Source: Planctomycetota bacterium
GTDB taxonomy: Bacteria; Planctomycetota; Phycisphaerae; Sedimentisphaerales; Anaerobacaceae
Assembly: GCA_023481165.1 (NCBI GenBank)
Contig: JAMCWO010000054.1
Span: 1 to 39,026, forward strand
Direction of reading: 5' to 3'
Length of the DNA stretch: 39,026 nt
The position numbers and the translations under genes are program-made. A model generated the notes under the pieces. The model worked only from the letters and a program-made list of their open reading frames with translations. It had not been told where the DNA came from and did no database searches. The first letter of the stretch is position 1. The number at the start of each line of letters is the position of its first letter. Below are positions 3,510 through 33,739 of the stretch, one piece after another.

Positions 3510-3656
3510 TCTCCGTCCTTTCCCGTGCGAAACCATCGTGACACCATCGTGCGGCGGTGTCACCTGCGGCGCTGCCGGCGCGACGGAATGATTATCTCTC
3601 GCAGGAGTGGTTTGGACAAGGGGTGGCTGGGTCTGCGGGTGGAACAGATGCAATCC

Positions 3657-3729
3657 GTAGGCTGGGCTGTGCCCACCAGTTGGCCGTCCGGTTGGGCCCG
3701 GGGGAATTGGTGGGCACAGCCCACCCTAC
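3657..3729. repeat. inverted pair of GTAGGGTGGGC palindromic repeats
   Basis: Two 22-bp arms (3657-3678 and 3708-3729) are inverted copies with one mismatch, separated by a 29-bp loop. Each arm is itself a palindrome, TGGGCTGTGCCCA. The right arm carries the TAG stop codon of the histidine kinase at 3726-3728. A second pair lies at 27544-27609 and a half copy at 33718-33739. It looks like a dispersed non-coding repeat of the REP/MITE kind. Confidence 0.85.
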
Positions 3730-5447
3730 GAGGATTGGCCGGCCTCTGTCATGGACTGGCCTGCGTCTACCGCGGCGTCGGGGACGGCGATGAGGAACGT
3801 GCTGCCCTTGCCGGTGGCGCTTTTGATCTTCATGCGTCCACCGAGGAGCTCCGCACGCTCCCGCACGCTCAGCAGGCCGGAGCCTGCCGTGTGGGTCAGC
3901 GACCGCAGATCGAAGCCCTGCCCCTGGTCGGAGATGGTCAGCCGCAACTGATTCCGGACGCGTGTGAGCCGCAATTTCGCCTCGGAGACCTCCGCGTGTT
4001 TGATGACGTTGAACAGGATCTCCTGGGCCGCCCGGTAGAGAAACATCCGCACCGGTTCCGAAGGCGAGTGAACCGGGCCGCGTGTCTGGACATGGACCAC
4101 CAGGCCGTGCTTGCTCTGCATCTGGTGCGCCAGCCACGCAAACGTGTCGTCCAGACCGCTCTGGGACAGCACCGCCGGACCGAGCTCATGCGAGAGATTG
4201 CGGGACTTCTCGATGGCGTCTTTGAGCATCTGCTCGACCAGCCGGACCGTCTCCGCCAGGTCCGCATCGCTCCGGACCCGGCTGTCCAGCAGACCCAATT
4301 GGAACTTGGCCGCCGCCAGGATCTGCTGCAGGTCATCGTGGAGAATCTCGGCCAGGCGCCTCCGCTCCCGATCCTCGGCGTCCAGCATCTCGAGCGTCAC
4401 CCGCTGAAGCTGATGGGCGCGCTGCTCCAACTGGCAGATCGCGTTCTGGCGCTCGGTGACGTCGTCGAGGCTCAGCACCAGGAACTGCACCTCCCCCGCG
4501 TCGTCGCACAGCGGGGTAAGTCGCCAATCCCAATACGTCACTCCTCGTTCGGGTTGATCGGGATAGATCAGCGGTCGCGCATAGGCATAAAAGGCCTGCC
4601 GACGACGGAGGGTCTGCCGAAAGATCGCCTCGGTCTCCTCGTGCGGATAGAGCGTGAAGTGGTTCTTGCCGACGAAGTATTCTGGGTTCTTGCCGGCCGC
4701 GTGCGCGTAGGCCTCGTTGACCCGCACGAAGTTGAAGTGCCGGTCCAGGAACGCCAACGGCGTGATGGTATCCCGGAAGAAGGCTTCCAGCATCTGGGAT
4801 CGTTTCCGCAGTTCCGTTTCCACCAGGGCGCGCCGGCCCATCTCCTCCTGCAGCCGGTCCACGGCGTCGCGCAACTCCTCCGTCCGGGTCCGCACCTCCT
4901 CCTGGAGCCGATTCTGGCAGCGATCGGCCTGCTCCTGCAGCCGTCTTCGCTCCGTGATGTCGCGAACGACCGTAAGCGTCATCCGCCGCTGGCGAAACTC
5001 CAGCGTGTCGACGCTGACCTCGACCGGCACCGGTTGCCCATCCTTGCGGATCAGCGTGGTCTCGAACAACAGTCGGCCGGATTTCCGGAGTCTCCGCAGA
5101 GTTTCGGGGATCGCCTCCCGGGCCTCTTCGCCCAAGATCTCGAAGAGAGTCAACTTCAGGACTTCCACGCGGGGGTAGCCCAGCATTTGGCACATGCGGT
5201 CGTTCACGTCGATAAAGCGGCCCTGCGGCGGAGAGGGCAGCAACTCGTGCAGCACAATGCCATCGCTAGAAACCTGAAAGAGATGAGCCAAGAGCGCCTC
5301 GCGCTCGCCGGGAGCGTCGAATGGAGCGGAGGAATCATGGATTTCGAGGTGGGCTACTCGGACCGGCTCTTGGCGATGCAATGGCTTATACGCTGGGTGG
5401 GATTCCTGCCCGCCGTCGATCTTCTCGTGTCCCGATTTTGCGGCCAT
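3726..5447 (-). CDS. PAS-domain sensor histidine kinase, HisKA_3 (NarL/DegS type)
   Basis: A 573-residue kinase with no obvious membrane segment, so probably cytoplasmic. First PAS domain about residues 50-165 (DGIVLHELLP, then TVVRDITERR); coiled coil about 166-226; second PAS about 226-335, ending SLDDVTERQ. The HisKA_3 dimerisation domain carries ERRRLAEILHDDLQQI with the phospho-acceptor His near residue 370. The HATPase_c domain has the N-box RAAQEILFNVIKHA, G1 DQGQGFD and G2 GSGLLSVRERAELLGG. ATG 5447 is chosen because GGAGGG lies seven bases upstream. No response regulator is adjacent, so it is an orphan here. Its TAG stop lies inside a palindromic repeat. Confidence 0.9.
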   Translation of the reverse strand: MAAKSGHEKIDGGQESHPAYKPLHRQEPVRVAHLEIHDSSAPFDAPGEREALLAHLFQVSSDGIVLHELLPSPPQGRFIDVNDRMCQMLGYPRVEVLKLTLFEILGEEAREAIPETLRRLRKSGRLLFETTLIRKDGQPVPVEVSVDTLEFRQRRMTLTVVRDITERRRLQEQADRCQNRLQEEVRTRTEELRDAVDRLQEEMGRRALVETELRKRSQMLEAFFRDTITPLAFLDRHFNFVRVNEAYAHAAGKNPEYFVGKNHFTLYPHEETEAIFRQTLRRRQAFYAYARPLIYPDQPERGVTYWDWRLTPLCDDAGEVQFLVLSLDDVTERQNAICQLEQRAHQLQRVTLEMLDAEDRERRRLAEILHDDLQQILAAAKFQLGLLDSRVRSDADLAETVRLVEQMLKDAIEKSRNLSHELGPAVLSQSGLDDTFAWLAHQMQSKHGLVVHVQTRGPVHSPSEPVRMFLYRAAQEILFNVIKHAEVSEAKLRLTRVRNQLRLTISDQGQGFDLRSLTHTAGSGLLSVRERAELLGGRMKIKSATGKGSTFLIAVPDAAVDAGQSMTEAGQSS

Positions 5448-27543: not shown

Positions 27544-27609
27544 GTAGGGTGGGCTGTGCCCACCACATGCTTGCGGTCAATGGAAGATGGTGGGCACAGC
27601 CCACCCTAC
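27544..27609. repeat. perfect inverted pair of GTAGGGTGGGC palindromic repeats
   Basis: Arms 27544-27565 and 27588-27609 are perfect 22-bp inverted copies around a 22-bp loop. The arm sequence matches the pair at 3657-3729. The left end lies only a few bases from the AGGAGG of the gene starting at 27530. It fills most of the spacer between the hydrolase gene and the MalK-type gene. Confidence 0.88.
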
Positions 27610-27681
27610 GGCTATCGCCGCTCCGGTAGAGTAGCCCGGGAGAAGACCAAAGACAAGCGTCTCTTCGCCCACAACCACCAA

Positions 27682-28780: not shown

Positions 28781-28815
28781 CCTTGATTTATGATTCACGG
28801 TTTATCATTTAGGAT
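28781..28815 (-). repeat. degenerate heptamer array (AATCNNN-like), five units
   Basis: On the minus strand the spacer reads as consecutive 7-mers ATCCTAA, ATGATAA, ACCGTGA, ATCATAA, ATCAAGG. It lies directly before ATG 28779 and is related to the array at 30614-30648. Confidence 0.65.
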
Positions 28816-28847: not shown

Positions 28848-30605
28848 TCAGAATGGATTGTTTCTCAACCGGGCCGCGGCCCGCGTGAGGAAGACCAGAC
28901 CCACCGACACGTAGACCGCGAAGGTCAGGGCCATCCAGCAGGTCGCATCCGACAGGCTGCCCATCCCTCTTTGCAGCCAGTCATACGTCCCGAGGCCCCC
29001 TCGATGAGCGGCCGCATTCACGATGACGCCGGCGTGGACAAAGGGGTTCAGATCCATATACGTCTCAATCACGCCCGTGGACGTTTTGGTCATCACTCCT
29101 AGGAAGATGGCGAGGAACAGGGGGAAAACGGCCCAGAGGCCCGCCGCCAGTCCCACGTTGGCGATTACCGCCGTCGTCGTATGCCGCAGGCGCGTGCTGA
29201 AGTACAGGCCCGTGCTGGTCAGGAAGAACACCACCCAAGCCACCAGGAGTGCCAGGTGAACCACGGCAATCGGATGAATGGTCCCCGGCCCCATGAACAC
29301 GAGAGTATGAGCGAACAGCAGCACCCATGCCGGCAGGCAGCGGCGCGCGGCGCCCGCGAACTTGCTCCAGAGAATCTCCCAGTTGCTGACGGTCGTCGTC
29401 AGCAAGAGCGGCCACGTCTGGGACTCCTTCTCCGTGGTGATGCAGGTGGCCGGCAAAATCACGGTGAAGAGGACGCCGACGCTGAAGAAGACGACGCCGT
29501 ACATGACGTGGGTCTCCGTATCCCGGAGGAGATTTGCCCGGTAGCACAGGCCATACGTCAGGAGCAGCAGGCCCAGGATCACGACGCCGGAAACAATCTC
29601 CGCGACCCGGCGCAGCTTGCGCCGGCCGAACAAAGGGGCCCGGCGCTCCTTCCACAGCACCGGCGGCCCCTGCACACGGCGGATAGTCGATGGCGGATTG
29701 GTGCCGCGATTCGCATCCACGATCCCGCCGGCCTGGCGCAACGCAGCCCTGCGGACCAGGATCGTGGCCAGCAACAGGAGCAAGGCGGACAGGCCCAGCA
29801 TGACGGCACAGTGCAGCGGCCAAGCGACGACCGCCGGCCGTGCCATATACAGCGCCTCCATCGCGGCTCCCATCACCACGAATGGATTGAAGTAGGAAAG
29901 CCAACGCATGAGGGTGGGTGGCGAGACCACCTTGTCCGTGAGAAAGGCCAGAAGGACGGGAATGCCTCCGAAGAGAAACCCCATCGCCAGGACAGTCTCA
30001 ATGATCGCGGCGTAAGCCTGCCGCGTGAAGATCGAGAAGAACAGGCTCAAAGACCCGACGAAGATGACGGTTGTCAGCGTCACGCACAGCCCGCACAGCA
30101 AAAAACTCCAGGGCACGCCCCCGAACACGCGCACCACCGCCAGTAGCGGCAGGGAAATCGCCAGCAGCAGGACGATCTGCAGCAGGCGGCTCATCAGCTT
30201 GCCGATCACGATCTGGAAGCTGCCGATCGGCGTCGTCATCAGCACGCCGAGCGTCCGCTTGTAGATCTCGTCGCTGATCGAGGTGCTGAGCATGACCGCC
30301 GCGATCGCCGGCGCGGTGAGAAACTGGAACCACAGGATGGCGGTGACGATCGTCTGGCCCGCCGCCGCCATGCGCGAGGCCTGGTACACCGAGGAGGTGC
30401 TGCGCACGAGACTGTCCAGCCAGACCACCGACGCCAGAAAGGTAAAGAGGCCAATGTAGAGAAAGCGCAGCACGTAGTTGCGCCGGCGCCGGCTGGAGAC
30501 CCGCATCTCCTTGTCGAAGATCGGCCCGGCCAGGCGCGGCAGAAGCGACGCCGCCCACCAGCGCCATCTCAGACTCGTGGTTTCCAAGTCCATCATGTTC
30601 TTCAT
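28848..30605 (-). CDS. ABC-2 type transporter permease
   Basis: A 585-residue membrane protein. An N-terminal cytoplasmic segment (GPIFDKEMRVSSRRRRNYV) leads to a first helix, then about ten more hydrophobic segments, including the ABC-2 hallmark region DEIYKRTLGVLMTTPIGSFQIVIGKL and a second similar region TEKESQTWPLLLTTTVSNWEIL. The duplicated motif suggests two fused ABC-2 halves. It is paralogous to the permease encoded upstream (30643-32484), and the pair probably form a heterodimer with the ATPase at 32514-33482. The substrate is unknown. ATG 30605 is used; nearby GTG and ATG codons are alternatives and no clear ribosome binding site distinguishes them. Confidence 0.87.
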   Translation of the reverse strand: MKNMMDLETTSLRWRWWAASLLPRLAGPIFDKEMRVSSRRRRNYVLRFLYIGLFTFLASVVWLDSLVRSTSSVYQASRMAAAGQTIVTAILWFQFLTAPAIAAVMLSTSISDEIYKRTLGVLMTTPIGSFQIVIGKLMSRLLQIVLLLAISLPLLAVVRVFGGVPWSFLLCGLCVTLTTVIFVGSLSLFFSIFTRQAYAAIIETVLAMGFLFGGIPVLLAFLTDKVVSPPTLMRWLSYFNPFVVMGAAMEALYMARPAVVAWPLHCAVMLGLSALLLLLATILVRRAALRQAGGIVDANRGTNPPSTIRRVQGPPVLWKERRAPLFGRRKLRRVAEIVSGVVILGLLLLTYGLCYRANLLRDTETHVMYGVVFFSVGVLFTVILPATCITTEKESQTWPLLLTTTVSNWEILWSKFAGAARRCLPAWVLLFAHTLVFMGPGTIHPIAVVHLALLVAWVVFFLTSTGLYFSTRLRHTTTAVIANVGLAAGLWAVFPLFLAIFLGVMTKTSTGVIETYMDLNPFVHAGVIVNAAAHRGGLGTYDWLQRGMGSLSDATCWMALTFAVYVSVGLVFLTRAAARLRNNPF

Positions 30606-30613
30606 CACTGCCC

Positions 30614-30648
30614 ATCATAAATCGAAAATCATAAATCATAAATCAAAA
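30614..30648 (+). repeat. tandem heptamer array, five units of ATCATAA type
   Basis: Units ATCATAA, ATCGAAA, ATCATAA, ATCATAA, ATCAAAA fill the spacer between the two permease genes. The TGA stop of the upstream permease (30643-30645 on the minus strand) lies inside the array. Confidence 0.85.
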
Positions 30649-32484
30649 GATTCTCCGTCGCAGGCAACACTTCGCTCGCCAGAAGAAGAATAGCCCTGCC
30701 AGGATATAGGCGACCGCGATGGCCATCAGGAGACATGTCACCCGGCCGACGTTCATTTCCTCACGACCCGTGTGAAACACGGCCGCGGTGGCATAGCGGA
30801 GCGACCGCCAGGATGTCCCGGCGTTCTGCGCGCCTGTGGCGCCCGTCATAATCAGTTGTGTCTGAACCGCCGGATGGGACCACAGATACGTGGCAAGCAC
30901 ATCGTTCTTTCCGCCCATGACCCCCATCAGACCGGCCAGAATCGGCCCGATCACCCACAGACCAATCACCAGGGCGAAGCTCGCCACGACGGCGGAGGTC
31001 GTGCGGGCGAAGCGGGCGCTGAAGTAGAGACCCGACCCCGTGAGGAAACACGTCAGCCAGGTCACCAGCGCCAGCAGATGAAAGACGGCCACGGGATGAA
31101 TGTAGCCGGCCAGGGTGAACAGGAGCACATGCCCGGCGAGCAAGCCCCAGATCGGCAGACAGCGGCGAAACGCGCTGACGGCCTTGCCCAGAAGAATATC
31201 CCAGTCGCTCAGGGGCGTCGCCAGGAGCAGCGGCCAGGCCTGGGACTCCTTCTCCGTAGTGATCCGCGTCGCCGAAAAGACGATATTGATCAGGCCGCCG
31301 ATAAAAACGAACAGCATGACATAAGTAATGTGGGTGAAATCCTCCGTGAGACTCTTCGACTGGGCCCCAACCAGGTACGTGAACACGAGCCCCACGATGG
31401 CCATCGCCAGGCCAATGTAGCTGTTGCGGCTGTCGATCCCCTGAATGAAAGGCGCCCGCAACTCCTTCCAGACCAGCGGCGGCCCCACCACCCGGCGGAC
31501 GCTGCCCGATTTCGGATTGCGGATTTCGGATTGCGGATTAGCTTTGCCGCGCAAATCCGCAATCCGCGATCCGCAATCCGCAATTCCTACGGCCTGTCGC
31601 AGAGCGACTCGGCGGACGATGGTCATCGCCCGGCCGAGCACAAGGGCGGAAAGACTGAGCATGAAGGCGCAATGCACAGACAGAGAGAACATGCTGGGGC
31701 CGCTGGGAGAGAACATCCGACTGGTGATCGCCGCCATGCTGGAGATGGGGTTGAGACTGACCACGATGGGGCCGAGCACCATCATGGCCCCCGCCCGGGA
31801 GCCGAGATTGACGCCCGCCCGCGAAAAGAGATAGGCGGCCGTGAACCCGAACAGGGCCGGCAGGACAAAGTACAGACAAGCCAGCGTGAACATCGTGCGG
31901 ATGATCACGCCGTAGGCGTGGCGGTTGCGGATCGAGAAGAGCAGGCTGAGCGAGCCCGCGAAGATCGCGGCAGTCAGCGTGATGCACAAGCTCGACAGCA
32001 GATAGCCCCATGGCACCCCGCCCAGCACCCGCACAATCGCCAGCATCGGCAGCGAGAGGGCCAGCAACAGGATCAATTGCAGCAGCCGGCTCAGGAGCTT
32101 GCCCATGACGATCTGCAGACTATTGATCGGCGTCGTCATGAGAATGCCCAGCGTGCGGTGATAGATCTCGTCACTGACGGCGCTGCTGAGCAGGACGATC
32201 GCGAGAATCTGCATGGCAAAGAACTGGAAGAACACGATCGTCGTGACGATCCGCTGGCCCGCGGCCGCCATGCGGGATTGTACGAGGGAAGCATTCCCTT
32301 CGTAGGGCACGACCCCAAGCCAGACGACACCGACAAACGCCGTCAAGGCCGCGATGTACAGGAACCGCAGTGCATACTGTCTCCGCCGGCGGCTGGCGAC
32401 CCGCAGTTCCTTAACGGCCAAGGGCCCCACCAGCCGCAAGGGGCTGAGGTACTCGACGAGGCTGGTCGTCTGTATCGGCTGCAT
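30643..32484 (-). CDS. ABC-2 type transporter permease, carrying an in-frame palindromic insert
   Basis: A 613-residue paralogue of the next permease, with the same order: GPLAVKELRVASRRRRQYA, first helix, DEIYHRTLGILMTTPINSLQIVMGKL, later TEKESQAWPLLLATPLSDWDIL and C-terminal helices. Between RQAVGI and RRVVGPPLVWKE it has about 15 more residues than its paralogue (IADCGSRIADLRGK, NPQSEIRNPKS), encoded by a heptamer palindrome at 31513-31580. The extra loop should be cytoplasmic and polar. ATG 32484 has no strong ribosome binding site. It lies 29 bases after the ABC ATPase stop, so it is probably in that operon. Confidence 0.88.
   Translation of the reverse strand: MQPIQTTSLVEYLSPLRLVGPLAVKELRVASRRRRQYALRFLYIAALTAFVGVVWLGVVPYEGNASLVQSRMAAAGQRIVTTIVFFQFFAMQILAIVLLSSAVSDEIYHRTLGILMTTPINSLQIVMGKLLSRLLQLILLLALSLPMLAIVRVLGGVPWGYLLSSLCITLTAAIFAGSLSLLFSIRNRHAYGVIIRTMFTLACLYFVLPALFGFTAAYLFSRAGVNLGSRAGAMMVLGPIVVSLNPISSMAAITSRMFSPSGPSMFSLSVHCAFMLSLSALVLGRAMTIVRRVALRQAVGIADCGSRIADLRGKANPQSEIRNPKSGSVRRVVGPPLVWKELRAPFIQGIDSRNSYIGLAMAIVGLVFTYLVGAQSKSLTEDFTHITYVMLFVFIGGLINIVFSATRITTEKESQAWPLLLATPLSDWDILLGKAVSAFRRCLPIWGLLAGHVLLFTLAGYIHPVAVFHLLALVTWLTCFLTGSGLYFSARFARTTSAVVASFALVIGLWVIGPILAGLMGVMGGKNDVLATYLWSHPAVQTQLIMTGATGAQNAGTSWRSLRYATAAVFHTGREEMNVGRVTCLLMAIAVAYILAGLFFFWRAKCCLRRRIF
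31513..31580. repeat. palindrome of inverted heptamer arrays inside a coding region
   Basis: Left arm 31513-31539 consists of CGGATTG, CGGATTT, CGGATTG, CGGATT. Right arm 31554-31580 is its inverted copy with 25 of 27 positions matching; the loop is 14 bases. It lies in-frame within the ABC-2 permease gene and accounts for its extra residues relative to the paralogue. Confidence 0.9.
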
Positions 32485-33482: not shown

Positions 33483-33498
33483 GGCCGTTGTCCTCATT

Positions 33499-33674
33499 AG
33501 GGTTCTGCAAAATGGACATTAGGCCTACATTCTTCAAGGAAATCGGCCGTTTCGATTTCCTTGGAGAATCCGTCTGACTCGCGCCCGGCGCAGCGATTCT
33601 GTCTTGGCGAGAAAGAAATCGAAAGACGCTTCTTCCTTCCCAAAACAGGCCTAATGTCCATTTTGCAGAACCCT
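33499..33674. mobile_element. MITE-like element, 176 bp with perfect 28-bp terminal inverted repeats
   Basis: Ends 33499-33526 (beginning AGGGTTCTGCAAAATGG) and 33647-33674 are perfect inverted copies. Inside, 33529-33545 and 33553-33569 form a second hairpin, with 16 of 17 positions pairing around a 7-base loop. No transposase is encoded, and I do not see an unambiguous target-site duplication. It lies directly upstream of the ribosome binding site of the ABC ATPase gene, between two genes of one cluster. Confidence 0.85.
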
Positions 33675-33717
33675 GTCGTCACTTAACCCTCAGCGCCAGA
33701 CCATTGTCTGCCGGGAT

Positions 33718-33739
33718 TGGTGGGCGAAGCCCACCCTAC
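33718..33739 (-). repeat. single GTAGGGTGGGC palindrome carrying a stop codon
   Basis: A 22-bp copy matching the arms at 3657 and 27544 at 20 of 22 positions (loop TC instead of GT). Read on the minus strand, its TAG (33736-33738) is the stop codon of the 714-residue membrane protein. Confidence 0.85.

Follow-up and report, generated by a model that had tools for sequence, protein, structure and literature searches.

Small palindromic repeats within bacterial protein genes have been described in several systems. The Rickettsia palindromic elements (RPE) are dispersed palindromes with many in-frame copies in unrelated conserved protein genes; according to the available text of the sources, they are about 105-150 bp long and each has an ORF for a conserved peptide (PMC2229807, PMC10969869). 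REPs, which are small palindromes as well, occur within genes in several species (available parts of PMC3733652). The RU/ERIC elements of enterobacteria and the NEMIS elements of Neisseria are MITEs of about 100-170 bp with defined terminal repeats, several of them with TA ends; these small repeats are fused in frame to host genes and are not described as heptameric in the available text of PMC2229807. Rickettsia is the chief known source of frequent in-frame palindromic repeats; elsewhere there are isolated cases among REPs and MITEs. A further group are the heptanucleotide repeats, namely GGGAATC in Xanthomonas, GGGGA(T/C)T in Nostoc and tandem heptanucleotides in Calothrix; the available parts of PMC4692102 mention inverted pairs for Xanthomonas and report the Xanthomonas and Nostoc heptamers as under-represented in coding regions. 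The heptamer palindrome family reported below was not found described in the open-access literature as far as its text was available, and neither its two repeat peptides nor its DNA unit was found there.

The locus analysed here is a palindrome with arms of tandem heptamers within a permease gene of a planctomycete. The window, i.e. the whole stretch of DNA analysed, has a length of 39,026 nt and is one whole contig of the host genome (G000; assembly of 6.05 Mb, 376 contigs).

Search procedures

The window was scanned for palindromes with 27-bp arms, at least 25 matches and a loop of 3-30 nt. Loop lengths of related elements were counted in genomes G000, G002, G007 and G008 using a search pattern which allowed loops of 6-26 nt. 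Tandem runs were counted at a threshold of at least 11 matches and at a looser threshold of at least 9 matches. The linker DNA of the permease genes was compared codon-wise and ungapped against codon shuffles. Codon-usage scoring at the repeat sites of G000 was too weak alone, and family matches and orthologues were used instead. For other planctomycetes, 20 stretches from six genomes (G071, G202, G275, G277, G303, G308) were picked before gene inspection, and the family-library scan covered 8 candidate ORFs, 2 of which had no match.

The palindrome and its position in the permease gene

The palindrome at 31513-31580 is exactly as the initial annotation had claimed, with arms of 27 bp and 25 of 27 positions matching; its loop measures 14 nt. 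The further claim that the gene is read through it was confirmed as well, since the 613-aa frame on the minus strand stays open across the palindrome.

30643..32484, minus strand: host gene, fused ABC-2 permease of 613 aa with a PF12679 match
31513..31539, minus strand: 3' arm of the palindrome (gene sense), coding-strand units of the AATCCGC type, peptide NPQSEIRNPKS
31540..31553, minus strand: palindrome loop of 14 nt, one of the two loop lengths most often seen in the family
31554..31580, minus strand: 5' arm of the palindrome (gene sense), coding-strand units of the GGATTGC type, peptide ADCGSRIAD
28848..30608, minus strand: paralogous permease with a linker 15 residues shorter, not an empty site (alignment with orthologues)

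The arms can be extended imperfectly to 31509-31542 and 31551-31584, which are 34 nt each and 88% complementary. Across the whole window 31513-31580 was the single match of the palindrome scan, and the same scan found such a palindrome in none of ten first-order Markov copies of the window, which ruled out a chance palindrome. The fold of the coding-strand RNA has an energy of -55.0 kcal/mol compared with -33.0 +/- 3.7 kcal/mol for shuffles (z -5.9), and the DNA fold of the palindrome has a z of -6.1.

Within the protein, the palindrome occupies the hypervariable linker joining the two permease halves, at about residues 301-329. The structure model of the permease has a low mean pLDDT of 53, with values of 27-39 per ten-residue block over residues 301-350; the low values of the linker are compatible with disorder and do not prove it. 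All eight named loci encoding relatives of the permease belong to Planctomycetota MAGs, three of which are labelled Sedimentisphaerales.

A dispersed family in the host genome

The initial annotation had proposed a genome search for copies elsewhere. This search placed the palindrome in a dispersed family with 41 exact-consensus sites in G000: the pattern GGATTNCGGATTNCGGATT gave 65 exact matches, which form these 41 sites, while its reversed control gave 0 matches in the same genome. By a rule of our own, 10 sites are two-armed and 31 single-armed, some of the single arms retaining a degenerate second arm. The two-armed copies span 52-92 bp, and the commonest element ends are CGATT/AATCG and GAATT/AATTC. 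In 16 distinct two-armed elements the loop measures 13-15 nt in seven, 19 nt in seven and another length in two, a count which omits four of the ten two-armed G000 sites for lack of a pattern fit (L093, L094 (3756), L097 and L098 (2443)). The loops of 13-15 nt and of 19 nt have look-alike sequences. Such quantised, similar loops are unexpected from independent slippage, so that the elements seem to have been copied from a single element that has two subtypes.

Other sequences adjoin some of the sites. Five single arms (L080, L091, L095, L102, L111) lie within longer composite repeats, several with a CCCAATT-like sequence upstream, and a sequence similar to AGACCTGCGG is located downstream of the single arm at L077, L084 and L091. 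At L096, L108 and L114 a second palindrome, similar to GCGGCCCCCGGTCGAAGCCGGGGGTGAC, adjoins the heptamers, and at L096 it lies in frame within the cytochrome gene.

Copies within protein genes and their reading frames

Of the 41 sites in G000, 14 lie in frame inside an ORF, and individual assignment to genes covers these 14. For 13 of the 14 the ORF is backed by a Pfam or NCBIfam family match or by an orthologue, and the fourteenth (L108) lies in an ORF without a Pfam match. The carriers with such backing, located in G000 including the window copy, are:

ABC-2 permease: the window copy
MurQ/GKRP-like protein
RimO: TIGR01125 match of 439 bits (cut-off 357) spanning the element, which lies just before the TRAM match
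XerD
dGTPase: element within the HD-domain match
multihaem cytochrome c
uracil-DNA glycosylase family 4: element N-terminal to the domain
GldG-like protein
NuoC/D-like protein
two B12-radical SAM proteins
Xaa-Pro aminopeptidase
PQQ propeller protein: element N-terminal to the domain

Both strands and three codon phases are used within genes. Seven GGATT arms lie in codon phases 2 (four), 0 (two) and 1 (one), and ten AATCC arms in phases 0 (six), 1 (three) and 2 (one). A (GGATTGC)n array contains zero stop codons across its six frames. Whichever frame is read, one strand encodes the rotated peptide GLRIADC and the opposite strand AIRNPQS; as 7 is no multiple of 3, the 7-residue peptide of a heptamer array is, apart from its rotation, independent of the frame within a strand. 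Freedom from stops in six frames is a property of 8264 of the 16384 possible heptamers, about half, and openness alone is therefore no special design. Real copies frequently fall short of a perfect array, 21 of the 41 being open in all six frames. For annotators, peptides like IADCGLRIAD and NPQSAIRNPQS in planctomycete proteins stand for repeat DNA.

Orthologues with and without the repeat

Permease orthologues lacking only the loop had been named in the initial annotation, together with copies elsewhere, as support for insertion. Orthologues without the loop were found for RimO, dGTPase and the NuoC/D-like protein and not for the permease, the measured orthologues of which have long linkers.

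In the NuoC/D-like protein, G000 has a whole palindrome and G008 a homologous one, the loops being identical at 16 of 19 positions. The orthologues of G001, G003, G006, G037, G038 and G041 have no loop and only a short VGGPN-like turn, and in G004 this site is taken by an insert of unrelated sequence, whose GTTCGTAG and CTACGAAC ends face each other; G002, G005 and G007, with no or a partial orthologue, were excluded from this comparison. RimO contains QSAIRNPQSA in G000 and G007 and a CCCGCCG array in register in G008, and it has no loop in G001-G006 and G009. The dGTPase genes carry different units, namely GGATTGC in G000, degenerate GGATTCC-like units together with AATCATC in G008, GGACAGA and TCCTCGG in G002, and 8-nt repeats in G001; those of G004, G005 and G009 are without a repeat, and the comparison excludes G003, G006 and G007. 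XerD of G000 is longer than that of G007 by exactly 21 nt, corresponding to three units. The XerD loop of G002 (L168) is filled by a different insert, with the peptide KHGRDARDA.

Copies common to species are present in RimO (G000/G007), in the NuoC/D-like gene (G000/G008) and in the permease (G000/G007/G008). In the aligned sequences, a given loop thus holds one repeat in one species and another repeat in the next, and a loop once filled can remain so through speciation.

The linker of the permease gene

The initial annotation had taken the shorter junction of the paralogue, about 15 residues less, as evidence of insertion. The length difference itself is correct (32 residues from LRQ to WKE versus 47 in the host gene), but the argument fails, because orthologues have equally long linkers: G007 has 56 residues between the same motifs, G008 47, and G001, G004, G005 and G006 have 49 each. 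The last four rule out the paralogue as an empty site, and their linker DNA is unrelated to the palindrome. Alignment of the orthologues thus does not present the loop as an addition to a short ancestral junction. A loop conserved in most orthologues with non-palindromic DNA, named beforehand as the finding that would speak against insertion, is literally what is seen at this one locus. Likewise against insertion of an element here, the net length change relative to the orthologues is about zero, so that an insertion would require the loss of an old linker.

At the DNA level, the G000 linker is identical to that of G007 at 48 of 81 nt and to that of G008 at 45 of 81 nt, values which none of 3000 codon shuffles reached in either case. 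Identity is at chance level in seven other orthologues (G001, G004, G005, G006, L070, G032, L073) and also in G002, where 842 of 2000 shuffles reach the value. The linker of the paralogue weakly resembles the palindrome at 22 of 39 nt, a borderline value reached by 38 of 2000 shuffles. Since homology is confined to G007 and G008 among the linkers compared, the repeat came into the linker, or took its place, in a common ancestor of G000, G007 and G008, and the DNA common to these three indicates that the repeat is old at this locus. On the common segment the fold has a z of -5.5 in G000, 0.2 in G007 and -1.4 in G008; the palindrome is decayed in G007 and G008, neither of which folds beyond chance. 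Identity between the linkers of G000 and G008 has fallen to about 55%, and yet 25 of 27 positions still pair in the window copy. This near-perfect copy is most simply explained by renewal in place, and recent overwriting by another copy is the alternative.

Homogeneity of the repeat units

The right arm of the NuoC/D copy consists of four AATCCGC units in G000 and of three CATCCGC units plus CATCCGA in G008. The RimO array consists of four CAATCCG units in both G000 and G007, and of CAGTCCG followed by three CCCGCCG units in G008. Over the first four units, neighbouring units agree at 100% in G000 and at 79-93% in G008, and orthologous units agree at 6, 4, 4 and 4 of 7 positions in RimO and at 6, 6, 6 and 5 of 7 in NuoC/D. 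Neighbouring units are more alike than orthologous ones, which is a mark of concerted evolution, seen at two loci; the G008 RimO array could have a separate origin. The homogenisation was probably brought about by slippage or hairpin-templated repair. In another genome, G136, the GGATTCC variant is apparently preferred: there are 16 matches in total, and 11 of the 13 places listed are pure GGATTCC, while GGATTTC units also occur in the remaining 2, which gives the impression of uniform units throughout this genome.

Other heptamer arrays

In the stretches selected for the element together with the window (226 kb), 45 runs with lag 7 and 15 with lag 14 were counted at the threshold of at least 11 matches, and lags 4-6 and 8-13 gave a total of 1. 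The 45 lag-7 runs comprise 30 of the element unit AATCCGC, 6 that are one base off and 9 of unrelated heptamers (AAATCAT, ACAGAGG, AAGTGTG, ACGGAGG). A second sample of 204 kb, taken without regard to the element, gave 6 runs with lag 7 versus 0-3 for each other lag at the same threshold; at 9 or more matches the lead of lag 7 was slim (7 runs versus up to 6, the latter for lag 15). AATCCGC formed none of the seven period-7 arrays in this sample, in which about 1.4 sites would be expected at the genome-wide density of 41 per 6.05 Mb. G000 thus favours 7-nt arrays of varied kinds to some extent, and in the palindrome family a single such unit has been amplified. The AATC core is present in 5 of 16 units from G000, which include near-variants of the element unit, and in 3 of 4 published units versus 5.5% of all heptamer classes, and this is suggestive of a common AATC core among bacterial heptamers.

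A second, AT-rich family is found next to the paralogous permease gene:

30626..30645, no strand assigned: array of the AT-rich heptamer, (AAATCAT)n, separating the paralogue from the host gene
28783..28815, no strand assigned: inverted imperfect counterpart of this array, on the paralogue's other side

The facing arrays, at 28783-28815 and 30614-30646, bracket the gene of the paralogue. The AT-rich heptamer TGATTTA has stops in all six frames.

Search for traces of mobility

Matches to PF01797 (RAYT) were found at 15 loci, 5 in G000 and 10 in G007. In the flanks fetched for these loci heptamers were present at 1 of 15 and GTAG-type REP motifs at 5 of 15, and a RAYT link was rejected on these counts. 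A GTAG/CGTC tag was not seen at the element ends, and the search with PF01797 identified no mobilising enzyme. The element has inverted arms; in the four orthologue sets (NuoC/D, RimO, dGTPase, XerD) no target site duplication was recognised by eye. None of the comparisons revealed a copy as a recent, still polymorphic insertion.

The window contains further repeats of other kinds. GTAG-type REP palindromes (TGGTGGGCACAGCCCACCCTAC) are located at 3655-3730, 27544-27611 and 33713-33739, and it was motifs like TGGTGGGCACAGCCCACCCTAC that occurred in the flanks of the five PF01797 loci of G000 and G007. A MITE-like element of 176 bp lies at 33495-33680; its terminal inverted repeats (33499-33526 / 33647-33674) are 28 bp long and perfect. 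It has 10 matches in its own genome, two of which are the query itself (forward and inverted) and two of which are nearly full-length places at 73% (C177:655-822 and C42:14195-14363). The contig start has a 33-bp inverted repeat (1-33 and 335-367; 91%), which could be an assembly-end fold-back.

Occurrence in other planctomycetes

The exact pattern was present in 34 of 294 sampled Planctomycetota genomes (own genome included), leaving 260 without it. Five other genomes from four families (G071, G202, G227, G275, G331) have 44-82 matches. In the 20 stretches picked, 8 of 27 exact copies lie within ORFs having family matches, namely:

LeuRS: TIGR00396 match of 956 bits, element within the editing-domain match
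MtaB: family match
formate dehydrogenase alpha: 751 bits
B12-radical SAM protein: family match
two PfaA/PKS ORFs: four copies together

The family has probably spread patchily through the phylum Planctomycetota.

Interpretation and alternatives

With a probability of roughly 0.7, the palindrome is a copy of a non-autonomous repeat family with heptamer arms which survives in genes as a linker loop. The element has two arms that face each other, each with about four units of 7 bases (GGATTKC ... GMAATCC), and between them a loop of about 14 or 19 nt; it also occurs as single arms. It would have spread through G000 and, patchily, through the phylum by an act of transposition or copying. Its survival in genes may be favoured by a unit that is stop-free in six frames, each frame giving IADCGLR one way and NPQSAIR the other, and copies would persist only where net lengths are multiples of 3 and within tolerant loops and linkers, presumably neutral for the carrier proteins. 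Persisting copies would be inherited over long times, their units kept alike in place by slippage or hairpin-templated repair, and a copy so homogenised would stay a near-perfect palindrome or drift blockwise towards a different heptamer. The copy in the permease fills the hypervariable linker between the two halves.

Three other origins were weighed. An ordinary linker, the codons of which fold back by accident of chance or composition, would agree with the hypervariability of this linker among the aligned permease orthologues and paralogues; its probability is negligible given the fold, the Markov copies and the 41 exact family sites. Mobilisation of a REP-type repeat by a transposase of the RAYT (Y1 tyrosine) kind would account for a short palindrome in high copy number in a genome with PF01797 genes, but is very improbable with heptamers beside a single PF01797 locus of 15 and no GTAG/CGTC tag seen at the ends.

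In-place slippage deserves more weight, though it is still judged unlikely. Here nothing moves: polymerase steps of 7 nt extend chance seeds, template switching makes some palindromes, and genes keep arrays of length 3n in loops. The single arms at 31 of the 41 sites, which slippage alone could make, count against a mobile element, as does the lack of AATCCGC among the seven arrays of the 204-kb sample. At 11 or more matches both samples have more runs with lag 7 than with any other lag (45 vs 1; 6 vs 0-3), and several unrelated heptamers coexist. The XerD difference of exactly three units and the RimO genes of G007 and G008, which are 21 nt longer than that of G002, point the same way, and the available text of PMC4692102 proposes a link between heptamer abundance and polymerase slippage. 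Against slippage stand the one unit GGATTKC at 41 sites and the two loop length classes; moreover, the 45 runs come from element-chosen stretches and are in 30 cases the element unit itself and in 6 one base off. A dispersed family of copied elements is therefore preferred.

A broader proposal is tentative and rather doubtful as a whole. Heptamer palindromes may form a distinct coding-compatible class of selfish DNA in Planctomycetota, giving a harmless peptide in any phase and landing recurrently in the same loops (dGTPase, RimO, NuoD, XerD), with different repeat families per species and with array units switching in frame by concerted evolution. If true, the phylum would have a standing mechanism to grow and rewrite protein loops. 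The orthologues present one loop without the repeat, with it, with another repeat and decayed, which opens to direct test both the way such repeats get into genes and their possible role as a source of new protein loops.

Comparison with known systems

The RPE resemblance noted in the initial annotation holds for a dispersed palindrome in frame in unrelated conserved genes, a behaviour now met in conserved enzymes of planctomycetes, where the 7-nt build offers a concrete reason for any-frame tolerance; it does not extend to length or to the conserved-peptide ORF. Unlike RPE of 105-150 bp, the planctomycete copies with two arms span 52-92 bp and have arms of tandem heptamers, and instead of one conserved peptide ORF the element gives two peptides, one per strand. 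It further differs in being read on both strands and in three phases, in units which look homogenised in place and in its Planctomycetota host. By analogy, the element may be called RPE-like, being closest to RPE in behaviour, but not an RPE, as the likeness is one of behaviour and not of compared sequences.

With the GTAG/CGTC REPs and their RAYTs it has in common a small palindrome, some copies of which are in genes, whereas no tag was seen and one of 15 RAYT loci had heptamers. Like RU/ERIC and NEMIS it is a small repeat fused in frame to host genes; it is heptameric, which those elements are not described to be. With the heptanucleotides of Xanthomonas, Nostoc and Calothrix it shares a tandem 7-nt unit in many copies, and GGGAATC, GGGGATT and the GTGATTA of H. 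pylori contain AATC or its complement, as does AATCCGC (available text of PMC4692102). In contrast to the Xanthomonas and Nostoc heptamers, 14 of the 41 copies of the planctomycete element are read in frame within ORFs.
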